A stretch of 64,000 nt of DNA from Chloroflexota bacterium (GTDB taxonomy: Bacteria; Chloroflexota; Dehalococcoidia; Lucifugimonadales; QGNO01): positions 62,001 to 126,000 of the forward strand of contig QGNO01000003.1 in the NCBI GenBank assembly GCA_003228195.2. Reading direction: 5' to 3'. Below, one piece after another: positions 44,211 through 50,660 of the stretch. Every line of letters starts with the position of its first letter. Position 1 is the first letter of the stretch. Below the pieces are notes generated by a model, which was given only the letters and a program-made list of their open reading frames with translations, was not told where the DNA came from and did not search any database. The translations under genes and the position numbers were made by a program.

Positions 44211-45386
44211 ATGAGTCTCTTAATTAGAAATGTCAGACTTGCCGACGGGACAATATCAAAACCAATCCCGACAGTATCAGTTGAGGTAGAAAATAGCATC
44301 ATATCTTGGATAGGTGAAGATGCCAGCCATCCTATCAGCCACAGCCATACTGAAGAAATTGACGGGCGCGGCTTCACGTTGATCCCAGGGCTTATCGACT
44401 GTCATGAGCATTTCACCAGCGATGGAGGACCAGACAATGCAGAAATTCTCGTTAATGATCCACTTGAAGTAGCGACTCTCAAAGCGGTGGGTAATGCCCG
44501 CAGGGCATTGCTTTCCGGAGTAACTTCAGCAAGGGACGTTGGTGCAAAGGGCGGTATTAACATACCATTTGCCAAATCTGTTGCGGCAGCAACCATACTG
44601 GGGCCTCGGATTCTTGCAGCTGGTGAGTGGCTAGCTTTCGCTGGCACTTGGGGTTCATTTGTCAGAACACTTGCTAATCTAGAAGAGATTGTTTTGGCAA
44701 CCAAAGAGCAAGTACATAAAGGAGCTGCTCTTATCAAAGTAGGTGCAACCGGCATGACACCAGAGGGGGAGCAATTCCCCACTCTTGGACTGGACGTGTT
44801 AAAAGCAGTGGTGAAGACAGCAACAGCGGCAGGATTAAAGGTAGCTGCCCATTGCGTGGGTTATGAGGGAACCCATCAGGCAGTGGAAGCCGGCGTAGCG
44901 TCGATTGAACATGGCACATTCGTTAGTGAGGAGACCGCGCAACTGATGGCCGCGAAAGGCACTTACTTGGTCCCTACGATGTCTACTTGGGATGCCCGGC
45001 TCACTCAAGCTTACATGGCGAAAGAACCTAAAGATAAATTAACAACTGCCGAAGAAAGAGCAGAGGAATCAAAGTCCAGCTTCAAACGTGCCTTATCAGC
45101 AGGAGTCAAGATAGTACCCGGCTCAGACGCCGGTGGATCGGCAGTACGACACGGTATGTTAGCAAGAGAAATAGAGTTAATGGTAGAAACTGGAATGTCT
45201 CCTTCTGCTGCATTAAGAGCCTCTACAAGTGACGCAGCTGATTTACTGGGCATAGCCGATATCGTTGGTACTATCGCGGTCGGTAAGATTGCGGATATGG
45301 TTTTGATTGATGGAGATCCTTACTCAAGTCCGTCAGCATTGCGGAATGTGTGGGGAGTTTTCCAAGCTGGCAAAAGAATCCGTTAA
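44211..45386 (+). CDS. Amidohydrolase (imidazolonepropionase/prolidase-like)
   Basis: LIPGLIDCHEHF, IKVGATGM, AAHCVG, IEHGTF and PGSDAGGS motifs. Confidence 0.92.
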   Translation: MSLLIRNVRLADGTISKPIPTVSVEVENSIISWIGEDASHPISHSHTEEIDGRGFTLIPGLIDCHEHFTSDGGPDNAEILVNDPLEVATLKAVGNARRALLSGVTSARDVGAKGGINIPFAKSVAAATILGPRILAAGEWLAFAGTWGSFVRTLANLEEIVLATKEQVHKGAALIKVGATGMTPEGEQFPTLGLDVLKAVVKTATAAGLKVAAHCVGYEGTHQAVEAGVASIEHGTFVSEETAQLMAAKGTYLVPTMSTWDARLTQAYMAKEPKDKLTTAEERAEESKSSFKRALSAGVKIVPGSDAGGSAVRHGMLAREIELMVETGMSPSAALRASTSDAADLLGIADIVGTIAVGKIADMVLIDGDPYSSPSALRNVWGVFQAGKRIR

Positions 45387-45460
45387 GCGACCTGCCGAAC
45401 CAAATGCCCCTGCCTTTTCCATCATCAAACCGTAGAAGATTGCCGAACGCGACATCGTGT

Positions 45461-45568
45461 CAATGTGTGCAAAATTACATATATTTCCGTTTATCTGTGT
45501 AAATCTGCTTCTAAGTTGACATTCAATAGTATATTTTCTTATACTTTTCCAAATCAAGGTGTGCAAAA
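45461..45568 (+). repeat. Direct repeat pair CAA(T/G)GTGTGCAAAA flanking the argJ promoter
   Basis: 45461-45474 CAATGTGTGCAAAA and 45555-45568 CAAGGTGTGCAAAA, 94 bp start to start. Confidence 0.6.
45516..45545 (+). promoter_or_regulatory. Near-consensus sigma70-type promoter for the arg operon
   Basis: TTGACA (45516-45521), 18-nt spacer, TATACT (45540-45545). Confidence 0.7.
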
Positions 45569-45586
45569 AGCTTATTATAGCTACAG

Positions 45587-47035
45587 ATGTCAACTGAAGT
45601 CGGAATTGGACTACGCGAGGCGGCTCGCAACTTATCTATAGAGCCAGGTACCATACGTTACTGGATAAAACGCGGCTGGATAAAAGTTATTCAAGAAGCA
45701 AGCGGGCAAGGTAAACCAATGATCTTAGACCGCCAATCAATTATGGCTTGCTATGCAATACGAACTAAAAAAGACAAGCGCTACAACAAATATATTCCTC
45801 AACCAATGGAGCAAGAAATGACTCATGACTTTCAATTCCTTCCTAGCGGTACATTAACCAGCCCTGATGGGTTCTTAGCTGGAGCTACATTTGCAGGAAT
45901 GAAAACATACTCAGAAGACAAACTGGACCTGGGCATAACCTATTCCACTAGTCCAGCCGTAAGCGCTGGGATTTTTACCACCAACCAAGTCAGGTCACCG
46001 TCCGTCATATTAACTGAAAAACATGTGCGAAACGGGAAAGTGCGTGCAATTGTTGCGAACAGCGGAATTGCTAACGCTGTTGTTGGAGAGCCCGGAGTCA
46101 AAGATGCTGAAGAAGTGGTAAGACTAGCGGCCATACAACTTGACCTACCTAAAGCCGAAATAGGTTTTCTAAGTACAGGAATAGTTGGAGTAGAACTTCC
46201 GATGGCCCTGATAAGAGCTGCCCTGCCACAAATCGACTTTTCTACCAAGGGTGGAACCGAGTTCGCAAAAGCGATAATGACTACGGACACCCACTCCAAA
46301 GAAGCAGCGATTTCCTACGAACATAAAGGTCGTACCATAACGGTTGGCGGAGCGGCTAAGGGCGCTGGCATGATCCACCCAAACATGGCTACGCTATTAA
46401 GCGTTCTCACTACAGATGCCAATGTAGACCCATCATACCTTCAGGAAGTAATACAATCCGCTGGTGACCAATCTTTCAATATGATATCTATAGACGGTGA
46501 TACCAGCACCAACGACTCACTAGTAATCATGGCAAATGGTACTGCTGGAGGACCCATCGTAGAAAAAGACTCTGAGGAAGGATCAATCTTCAAGGAAGCC
46601 GTTACTCAACTGTGCATACACTTGTCAAAACAGGTGGTCTTGGACGGTGAAGGCGCTAACAAACTGTTTGAGGTCAAGATAGTGGGCGCGCGAAATTATA
46701 ATGATGCGCGCCTGGGAGCCAGGGCCGTTTCCAGCTCGAATCTAGTTAAAACTGCCGTCCATGGCAACGACCCAAACTGGGGCAGACTGGTAGTGGCATT
46801 GGGTAGAAGCGGGGCGCGAGTGAAAGAGGACAAATTGTCTCTCTACATCAACGATGTGTGCATCATGGAAAACGGACTGCCAATTCCATTCTTTAAAGAC
46901 GCCATAGTACTCCAAATGCAAAATCCAGAGGTGAGATTTACCATAGATCTAGGGATTGGTGATTCAACGGCTACCGCCTGGGGCTGTAACCTCAGTGAAG
47001 GTTACGTGACTTTCAACAGTGCCTATACTACTTAA
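45587..47035 (+). CDS. argJ: ArgJ (bifunctional ornithine/glutamate N-acetyltransferase) with N-terminal HTH domain
   Basis: Residues 1-~70 HTH-like (LREAARNLSIEPGTIRYWIKRGWIKVI); ArgJ body with GAGMIHPNMATLLSVLTTDA and NDPNWGRLVVALGRSG. Confidence 0.92.
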   Translation: MSTEVGIGLREAARNLSIEPGTIRYWIKRGWIKVIQEASGQGKPMILDRQSIMACYAIRTKKDKRYNKYIPQPMEQEMTHDFQFLPSGTLTSPDGFLAGATFAGMKTYSEDKLDLGITYSTSPAVSAGIFTTNQVRSPSVILTEKHVRNGKVRAIVANSGIANAVVGEPGVKDAEEVVRLAAIQLDLPKAEIGFLSTGIVGVELPMALIRAALPQIDFSTKGGTEFAKAIMTTDTHSKEAAISYEHKGRTITVGGAAKGAGMIHPNMATLLSVLTTDANVDPSYLQEVIQSAGDQSFNMISIDGDTSTNDSLVIMANGTAGGPIVEKDSEEGSIFKEAVTQLCIHLSKQVVLDGEGANKLFEVKIVGARNYNDARLGARAVSSSNLVKTAVHGNDPNWGRLVVALGRSGARVKEDKLSLYINDVCIMENGLPIPFFKDAIVLQMQNPEVRFTIDLGIGDSTATAWGCNLSEGYVTFNSAYTT

Positions 47036-47114
47036 GCCACAACTCTTTTTGAAATAGTATGAAGGTTGGCTATTGCACAACAATCCAGTCAGCTGTAACG
47101 ATAACATTTTCGAT

Positions 47115-47903
47115 ATGAACACTAAGCGAACAATTGTAATCAAGATAGGCGGAAGTACGTTAGAATCAAACGACACGACCTTAAGTGATATTGTGTCTCT
47201 GCAAGATTCAGGAAATGAGATAGTTGTCGTGCACGGGGGCGGCCCTTTAATTTCGGACTGGATGAAACGGCAAGGGTTACTACCACGTTTCATAAAAGGG
47301 CTCCGGGTTACAGATTCGGCAAGTCTAGAAATAGCTGTGGCGGTCCTAGCAGGTTTGATTAATAAGCAACTGGTTTCTACTATTGCGTCGCTTGGAGGAC
47401 GAGCGATCGGCCTTTCCGGGGTTGACGGCAATATGTTGCAAGGGCAAATAAGCAATCCAGATCTTGGATTTGTTGGCAGGATCACAAAAGTGGACCCGAA
47501 CCCTATCTTGGGTATTTTACAAGCTGGATATATACCCATGATTGCGCCTGTGGCGATAGCTGAAACTGAACAAGCGGGATCATTTCTACTAAACATAAAT
47601 GGTGATATAGCAGCTGGTCATTTGGCCTGGGCGTTAAAAGCTGACGAGCTGATTTTCCTGACTGATGTTGCTGGAGTTCTTGACTCATCCGGAAGACTGA
47701 TATCCAGATTAACAGCAAGGGAGGCTCGCGGACTGATTACCGCTGGAATTGCTCATGGCGGCATGATACCAAAGCTTGAGTCTTGCATTGTAGCAATTGA
47801 ACGCGTGCCTAAAGCCAGAATATTGGATGGCAGACATCCTGGAACGCTGATTAAAGCTCTAAACAATGATACTCTAGGGACACAAATAATAGGAAAATAT
47901 TAA
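47115..47903 (+). CDS. argB: Acetylglutamate kinase
   Basis: IVIKIGGSTLE, VVVHGGGP, LRVTDSASLEIA, NINGDIAAGHLA; ATG at 47115. Confidence 0.95.
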   Translation: MNTKRTIVIKIGGSTLESNDTTLSDIVSLQDSGNEIVVVHGGGPLISDWMKRQGLLPRFIKGLRVTDSASLEIAVAVLAGLINKQLVSTIASLGGRAIGLSGVDGNMLQGQISNPDLGFVGRITKVDPNPILGILQAGYIPMIAPVAIAETEQAGSFLLNINGDIAAGHLAWALKADELIFLTDVAGVLDSSGRLISRLTAREARGLITAGIAHGGMIPKLESCIVAIERVPKARILDGRHPGTLIKALNNDTLGTQIIGKY

Positions 47904-47921: not shown

Positions 47922-50660
47922 TTGACAAATAACGGCGACAATACACCTTCAGCAAGTTGGAACTCTGACTTCCTTTTCCCTACAGATATCGGTAAGTTTC
48001 TGAAATGGGGGCTACTTGCGCTGTTAGTGCTACTAACACTAGCTCTAACATTCATACTGCTAGAGATTTACACCAACTGGCTGTGGTTCGAATCTTTAGG
48101 CTTCCTAGGCATTTTTAGAACTGTTTTGTGGACTAAGATATGGCTTTTCCTTGCTGGGGCTCTGATTTTCAGTGCCTTGGCCGGTCTAAGTGTATCCATT
48201 GCTTACAGAAACGGCAGAGGAGAATCTTACCTTCCCCTACCTCCTCAAACAATTCACTCGATAAACAAACTAACCGTAGTGGTAATCGGTCTTGTAGTTG
48301 CAATCGCGTCACTAGCGTTTGGAACAACGCTAAGCGGAAACTGGGAATCTGTGCTCAGGTTAAGTGAAAGTTCCCCATTTGAAATTTTAGATCCTGTTTT
48401 CCAAAAGGACGTCAGTTTCTTTGTGTTCACACTGCCAATACTACATCTAGCACAGGGTTGGATTCTTGGAGTTTTGATAGCAACGCTCATCATTACGCTA
48501 GGAGTTTACTTGATTCAATTCGCAATCAGGGGCTTGCCAATCCAGTTTAGCCAAAATCAAAAGACGCAGGCAGCCGTAATCGGTGCTCTTATTTTCCTTA
48601 CTTTGGCCGCTGGGCATCTTCTAGGAAGGTATCAAACACTATTCTCGGAGCAAGGGGCAGTATTTGGGGCCACCTATACAGACATTCACGCCAGAATACC
48701 AGCGCTTCTAGTGCTCGCATTCGTGACGGCGTCAAGCGGAATATTGCTATTGGCTTCTTTGCACTCTTCGATACGAGGCTCACGGGGAAATCGTCTCGCC
48801 ATTGCAGCAATTTTACTTTGGTTAATAGCAACTTTCGGAATCGGTAATTTGTATCCGTCTTTCATACAACGGTTTACAGTTGACCCGAACGAGCTTCAAA
48901 AGGAACGAATTTACATAGAAAGGAACATTGAATTTACTCGTGCTGCTTTTGGGATCAACAAGATAGATAATCGATCTTACGAAGCAACCGGGCAGCTAAC
49001 ATCGAAGGAAATCTTAGATAATAGTGAGACCATAAACAATGTCCGACTCTGGGATCCTAAACCATTAGTTGACACTTACAACCAAATCCAACATCTGCGG
49101 CTATACTACAACTTCTCAGACGCGGATGTTGATCGATATGAAATAGATGGTGAATATAGGCAAGTGCTTGTAGGTGCGCGGGAAATTCACCCAGAGTTAT
49201 TGCCAATTGAGGCACAAAGATGGGTTAATGAAAAGCTCCAATTCACCCACGGATATGGTGCTGCTGCGAGCCCAGTTACCGAATTTACAGAAGAAGGGCG
49301 GCCTATATTTTTTGTTAAGGACGTTCCGCCGACGGGACCACTCAAAATAAATAGACCAGAAATCTACTACGGCGAAAGCACCACAAACTACGTAATAGTT
49401 AACAGTGAAACCGACGAATTCGATCACCCGACCGAAGGCAATCAACCAGTTTACGTTCAGTACAAAGGAGATGGAGGCATATCCCTTGGTTCATTGCTGC
49501 GGAAATTGGCATACGCCTTACATTTTCGAGATGTAAACATTTTAATCAGCGGAGAAGTCACTACTGAGAGTAAAGTGATGTACGAACGGGAAATCACTTC
49601 AAGAATTACAAAAGTCGCACCGTTCTTGACACTCGACAAGGATCCTTACATAGTCATCGAAAACGGGAAGCTGGTCTGGATTCAAGATGCCTATACTACT
49701 ACCAACAAGTACCCCTATTCAAAGCCTACCGGCAATTTCAACTATATAAGAAACAGCGTGAAAGTAGTCGTAGATGCGTATGACGGTGGGTTGCAATTCT
49801 ATGTCTCTGATCCAGATGATCCTATGATTCAAACGTATAAAAAGATCTTTCCAGATCTTTTTATACCAATGAATCAGATGTCAGATTTCCTGAAAAATCA
49901 CCTCAGGTATCCTGTAGACATGTTCTCAATACAATCGGAAACTTATCTACAATACCATATGACAGACCCGACTGTTTTCTTTAACAAGGAAGACCAGTGG
50001 AGTATCCCTACGGAAATTTCATTCGGGCAACAACAGCCCGTAGAACCCTATTACGTTATAATGAAGCTTCCTGGAGAAAAAGACGTTGAATTCGTTTTGA
50101 TACTTCCTTTCAGCCCCGCAGACAAGCCTAATATGGTTGCATGGCTAGCAAGTCGAATGGATGGACCTCACTATGGAGAACTGGTGTCTTATACATTCCC
50201 AAGCGGAGTTCAAGTTGACGGCCCAATTCAAATAGAAGCAAGAATAGACAATAACACTGAGATATCTCAACAATTTACGCTGTGGGATCAATCAGGATCA
50301 GCTGTTATAAGAGGAAATCTTCTGGTTATTCCAATAGCCAACTCTATCTTGTACGTAGAGCCTATCTATTTGATGGCCGAAGGCGTTGCGCTCCCGGAAC
50401 TGAAACGAGTCATACTAGCGTCGGCAAACAAAGTAGTGATGGAAAAGACGCTCAACAAAGCCCTAAGATCGCTGTTTGGTACTCAAATCTTGCCAGAAAC
50501 AACATCATCAGTTAAGGACCCTGCAGATCCTTCCACCGATGCAGGGAGCGGACTGGGAACAATCAAAGAAGCTTTAAATGCTCTGAAGCAAGGGCTGGTA
50601 ACACTAGAGGAACTGGTTGCCAAATTGTCAGATGGGATTAACAAGGAGAGTAAATCGTGA
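47922..50660 (+). CDS. UPF0182 family large membrane protein
   Basis: 912 aa; N-terminal helices with ILLEIYTNWLWFESLGF, then extracytoplasmic region (YGESTTNYVIVN). Confidence 0.93.
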   Translation: MTNNGDNTPSASWNSDFLFPTDIGKFLKWGLLALLVLLTLALTFILLEIYTNWLWFESLGFLGIFRTVLWTKIWLFLAGALIFSALAGLSVSIAYRNGRGESYLPLPPQTIHSINKLTVVVIGLVVAIASLAFGTTLSGNWESVLRLSESSPFEILDPVFQKDVSFFVFTLPILHLAQGWILGVLIATLIITLGVYLIQFAIRGLPIQFSQNQKTQAAVIGALIFLTLAAGHLLGRYQTLFSEQGAVFGATYTDIHARIPALLVLAFVTASSGILLLASLHSSIRGSRGNRLAIAAILLWLIATFGIGNLYPSFIQRFTVDPNELQKERIYIERNIEFTRAAFGINKIDNRSYEATGQLTSKEILDNSETINNVRLWDPKPLVDTYNQIQHLRLYYNFSDADVDRYEIDGEYRQVLVGAREIHPELLPIEAQRWVNEKLQFTHGYGAAASPVTEFTEEGRPIFFVKDVPPTGPLKINRPEIYYGESTTNYVIVNSETDEFDHPTEGNQPVYVQYKGDGGISLGSLLRKLAYALHFRDVNILISGEVTTESKVMYEREITSRITKVAPFLTLDKDPYIVIENGKLVWIQDAYTTTNKYPYSKPTGNFNYIRNSVKVVVDAYDGGLQFYVSDPDDPMIQTYKKIFPDLFIPMNQMSDFLKNHLRYPVDMFSIQSETYLQYHMTDPTVFFNKEDQWSIPTEISFGQQQPVEPYYVIMKLPGEKDVEFVLILPFSPADKPNMVAWLASRMDGPHYGELVSYTFPSGVQVDGPIQIEARIDNNTEISQQFTLWDQSGSAVIRGNLLVIPIANSILYVEPIYLMAEGVALPELKRVILASANKVVMEKTLNKALRSLFGTQILPETTSSVKDPADPSTDAGSGLGTIKEALNALKQGLVTLEELVAKLSDGINKESKS

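Follow-up and report, generated by a model that had tools for sequence, protein, structure and literature searches.

BirA and PutA are metabolic enzymes that carry an N-terminal DNA-binding domain. Both of them double as repressors (reviewed in PMC6978683). A different type of regulator is represented by BldC, a MerR-like protein without an effector domain, which binds direct repeats in a head-to-tail manner (PMC5859096). ArgJ is a bifunctional or monofunctional ornithine acetyltransferase (TIGR00120, PF01960; solved structures 1vz6, 1vra and 3it4). The M. tuberculosis enzyme is an A2B2 tetramer, with cleavage taking place between Ala199 and Thr200 (PMC5887547).

The window analysed here is a stretch of 64,000 nucleotides from an uncultured Chloroflexota bacterium. 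It contains a single ORF of 482 codons (45587-47035, + strand), running from ATG to TAA with zero internal stops, in which a 77-residue MerR/excisionase-like HTH segment is in frame with a complete and intact ArgJ. The features of the locus are as follows.

45460..45474, + strand: upstream copy of a 15-bp direct repeat, TCAATGTGTGCAAAA, candidate operator (exact TCAAKGTGTGCAAAA occurs twice in the genome)
45516..45545, + strand: sigma-70-like promoter TTGACA-N18-TATACT, 11/12 matches
45554..45568, + strand: TCAAGGTGTGCAAAA, the second, downstream repeat copy, where transcription presumably starts (repeat search)
45587..45817, + strand: residues 1-77, putative HTH-type domain (core approximately residues 8-59) and linker (sub-threshold profiles, relatives L114 and L129, coding signal, model)
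45808..45811, + strand: GGAG, Shine-Dalgarno-like, 6 nt before the internal ATG (sequence)
45818..47035, + strand: ArgJ proper, from Met78 (native-type start) to the stop (PF01960, NF003802, TIGR00120; starts of relatives align here)
46391..47032, + strand: ArgJ beta chain from the catalytic Thr269 (invariant site and solved beta chains)
47073..47903, + strand: argB (N-acetylglutamate kinase), the next gene (AA_kinase PF00696, 161 bits)

The complete ArgJ occupies residues 88-482, and this is the only argJ copy in the assembly (1.52 Mb, 28 contigs, 90% complete). The whole HTH-ArgJ protein exceeds the curated cut-offs of the two equivalog families, TIGR00120 (420.7 bits against 298) and NF003802 (449.3 bits against 351), as well as that of PF01960 (438.5 bits against 32), and the match to the ArgJ family is full-length. 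All positions invariant across 35 aligned ArgJ sequences are also present in this protein, including Ala268 and Thr269, both invariant, between which the self-cleavage site lies. Residue 269 is the first residue of the beta chains in the solved ArgJ structures. The catalytic motifs and the adjoining argB are likewise shared with the family, and acetyltransferase activity is predicted here. An HTH pattern followed by a complete ArgJ with its self-cleavage region in one uninterrupted ORF, as described in an earlier sequence-only reading of this DNA, is thus borne out. The same applies to its expectation that the HTH would be retained on the alpha chain after self-cleavage, which agrees with the Ala268-Thr269 site: if the whole ORF is translated and cleaved before Thr269, the extra residues remain on the alpha chain.

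The order argJ-argB is conserved in relatives, and the true start of argB here may be a later codon. Directly after argB lies a UPF0182 membrane-protein gene (47922-50660), in an order conserved in many relatives. The genes upstream of argJ (MFS, amidohydrolase) are not conserved in relatives.

With the exception of this genome, the HTH-ArgJ architecture was not encountered among the relatives. By tblastn with the whole protein, argJ is present in 234 of the 250 genomes of the order, this one included. In the other 233 argJ-bearing genomes, none of the matches listed extends unbroken into residues 1-60. The architecture is also absent at 80 GTDB loci and among the matches listed for a sample of 400 genomes of the phylum. 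The one apparent exception in the phylum sample (L181, G787) was a chance extension, and the other listed matches starting before about residue 60 run through a stop. Several long open frames (G582, G040, G463, G074 and G069) consist of G+C-rich or other-gene sequence without an HTH. The relatives compared include none from the same family, and the nearest are therefore only ~65% identical. In all relatives searched, ArgJ begins at the position of the internal ATG and no HTH precedes it; the 77 additional N-terminal residues of HTH type distinguish this ArgJ from all of them. No ArgJ-HTH fusion was found in the literature search either, consistent with the sequence-only reading, which knew of none. 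Judging from the genomes searched, the architecture appears to be confined to this one. The architecture of the relatives leaves the fusion here intact but makes it lineage-specific, and a recent loss of a stop codon or an assembly error may be involved. As the fusion occurs in one genome only, conservation gives no support to a function.

The MerR/excisionase-like character proposed for residues 1-77 stood in the type of the best matches, which are of the MerR_1 and HTH_17 kind, but not in their strength, as all of them are below the cut-offs. MerR_1 reaches 19.1 bits (curated cut-off 21.6), HTH_17 16.1 (27), the carph-isopro domain 20.7 (38) and the excise profile 12.8 (28.8); no Pfam or NCBIfam match for these residues passes its curated cut-off. 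Excisionase-type PHROGs match at E ~0.01. In size and HTH pattern the segment resembles BldC and the excisionases (MerR-like HTH without effector domain, HTH_17), from which it differs in its sub-cut-off profile scores and in being fused to an enzyme. A single-sequence model consists of four helices; of the five models made, the best has a pLDDT of 73 and the other four have 42-51. DNA-binding proteins (RacA, NmlR, BldC, Xis, phage HTH proteins) predominate among the PDB folds nearest to this model, all of which are at E > 1. In the full-length model, residues 1-78 are mostly below pLDDT 50, since no other alignment row covers them. On balance, residues 1-77 are regarded as an HTH-type domain; confidence in this assignment is fair but not full. 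The sub-threshold profiles and the restriction of the fusion to a single lineage would also suit a real fusion whose HTH-like segment has no transcriptional role and acts as a tether or as a folding or solubility tag. The closest relatives and nearest fold matches, though weak, are DNA-binding domains, and this explanation is considered very improbable.

In a search of 393 genomes, the best relative of the HTH segment was a stand-alone protein of 81 aa from a genome of the same class (L114:1480-1725, E 4e-8 for that genome), with an identity of 38-41% (41% over 46 residues). A second homologue, found in the same order with a two-row profile (E 1.4e-6), forms the N-terminus of L129, a tyrosine-recombinase-like protein in which MerR_1 is just above its cut-off (21.8 bits) and Phage_integrase is below its own; the remainder of this protein is recombinase, not ArgJ. 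The existence of both a stand-alone relative and an N-terminal HTH in another protein implies that the module is portable. No second copy of the HTH occurs elsewhere in the same genome. Many weaker HTH matches across the order fall in other proteins with MerR-like domains of a generic kind and were excluded as relatives. Candidates for a phage or plasmid origin of the HTH were also rejected, as no phage matched, HTH proteins of cyanobacterial plasmids matched only weakly (best E 1e-4), and a viral contig gave a single short match. In L114 the HTH gene is followed after about 200 nt by a small SWIM-type zinc-finger ORF (1921-2205; 17.2 bits against 19.6), possibly forming a pair with it, and no such SWIM-protein partner was found above the cut-off in the present genome.

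The occurrence of the same HTH at the N-terminus of the L129 protein raises a further explanation, in which the segment is not translated, or is decaying, and represents a relic of, for instance, a tyrosine recombinase N-terminus. Only ArgJ from Met78 would then be made and the region would serve as a long leader. The HTH ATG has no good Shine-Dalgarno sequence, as this explanation would expect, and many genes in this genome likewise have none that is clear. Against it, the 77 codons contain no stop and their codon usage is typical of expressed genes here. The codon score of the segment is +0.16 bits/codon in the ORF frame, close to the median of +0.20 bits/codon for genes in the 64-kb window, and the five other frames score between -0.43 and -0.61; the training set comprised ~40 large ORFs, the HTH-argJ ORF among them. 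The HTH segment, with a codon usage like that of this genome's genes, is on this measure genuinely coding. Moreover, the HTH ATG has a near-consensus promoter 41 nt upstream of it, and the relic explanation is regarded as quite unlikely.

This promoter, TTGACA-N18-TATACT, had been proposed to place the HTH at the 5' end of the transcript and is indeed present, although promoter-like sites as a class are not commoner than in shuffles (4 observed versus 3.1). Its TATACT is 41 nt upstream of the HTH ATG, and the old start of ArgJ is another 231 nt downstream, whereas in several relatives a TATACT -10 hexamer is found ~25-45 nt before argJ itself. It can be seen that the HTH occupies the former promoter-proximal place of argJ. 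In several related families (L003-L009 and L034), the element ~25-45 nt upstream of argJ is extended -10-like, mostly TATGSTATACT. No riboswitch or other Rfam element was found in 45200-47200.

A second in-frame ATG, not reported in the sequence-only reading, encodes Met78 at 45818, at the start position of the relatives. In the relatives the ArgJ start corresponds to residue 78 of the present protein or lies within a few residues of it. Several of them have an in-frame stop 1 to 5 codons upstream of the ArgJ Met, which makes a longer ArgJ impossible in those relatives; for the others the nearest ATG was taken as the start, biasing the start alignment of 35 sequences. With GGAG 6 nt upstream of this internal ATG, ArgJ of native length could be made here too, and may be produced from Met78 alongside the fusion or as the sole product.

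These observations also bear on the explanation that two genes have been read as one ORF. In this case a stand-alone HTH gene upstream of argJ would have lost its stop through recent mutation or assembly error, ArgJ would be made mainly from Met78, and the HTH would be unrelated to the enzyme. Such an origin would account for the position of Met78, which coincides with the start in relatives (in several of them a stop precedes that start by no more than 5 codons), and for the GGAG at 6-nt spacing. Additionally, the closest HTH relative is a stand-alone protein of 81 aa, a length close to that of the 77-aa extension, no relative searched shares the fusion, and the assembly is a draft of one genome in 28 contigs. 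On the other side, the frame is open as assembled, the coding signal is continuous through the HTH segment, no frameshift signature is seen, and ribosomes must continue into ArgJ if the HTH ATG is used. This is the principal rival explanation, less probable than the main one given next but with a real share of the probability.

The main explanation, to which we give about an even chance, is that a portable MerR/excisionase-type HTH was added in frame at the 5' end of argJ, specifically in this lineage, and that the start originally used by argJ was kept. The HTH coding sequence sits between the promoter and argJ with no stop before ArgJ, and Met78 and its GGAG have been kept. Following such an addition, the transcript would give a 482-aa HTH-ArgJ precursor, and native-length ArgJ would probably also be produced from Met78. 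Both forms would cleave themselves before Thr269, with the HTH staying on the alpha chain, and the product would be an ordinary A2B2 enzyme displaying up to two HTH domains. HTH-ArgJ could be a rare enzyme with a second role in gene control, or just as well a join that arose recently or by chance and in which the normal start of the enzyme is still used.

The promoter is flanked by the two copies of the direct repeat, which are 94 bp apart, or about nine helical turns. The exact TCAAKGTGTGCAAAA occurs at these two places only in the 1.5-Mb genome; with two mismatches allowed, genome matches are at the level of a reversed-pattern control. When the 200-nt region was shuffled 2000 times, 3 of the shuffles produced a repeat this good (14/15), and of the 320 successive 200-nt blocks into which the window divides, only one reached that level. 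The pair was noticed in hindsight and is treated as a lead, being a candidate operator on sequence grounds. BldC sites are tandem repeats, in contrast to the widely spaced copies here.

ArgR (PF01316) was found neither in this genome nor in 39 relatives, among which argJ is nearly universal. As those 39 relatives have no fusion, the absence of ArgR is general and not specific to this genome. The fusion could regulate its own operon, an idea with circumstantial backing from the direct repeat around the promoter and from the fact that no ArgR was found. As a weaker step of the main explanation, the fusion might bind the two 15-bp repeats and, once bound, damp transcription of argJ-argB in a genome that yielded no ArgR. 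The full form of this idea, an enzyme-regulator in which the HTHs of the self-cleaved tetramer bind the TCAAKGTGTGCAAAA repeats and govern argJ-argB, the lineage having no detectable ArgR, is rather unlikely. That HTH-ArgJ senses acetylated intermediates, as had been suggested, is speculation.

The likeness to BirA and PutA is one of principle, an enzyme joined to an N-terminal HTH-type domain; here both are in one ORF that also holds an internal start with GGAG. Enzyme and domain are unrelated to those of BirA and PutA, and DNA binding by HTH-ArgJ is putative. If true, the enzyme-regulator would be a newly formed one of the BirA/PutA kind, and we know of no other ArgJ of this kind. Having kept the old internal start, it would illustrate how fusions of this type can arise, one gene giving both the enzyme and the fusion.
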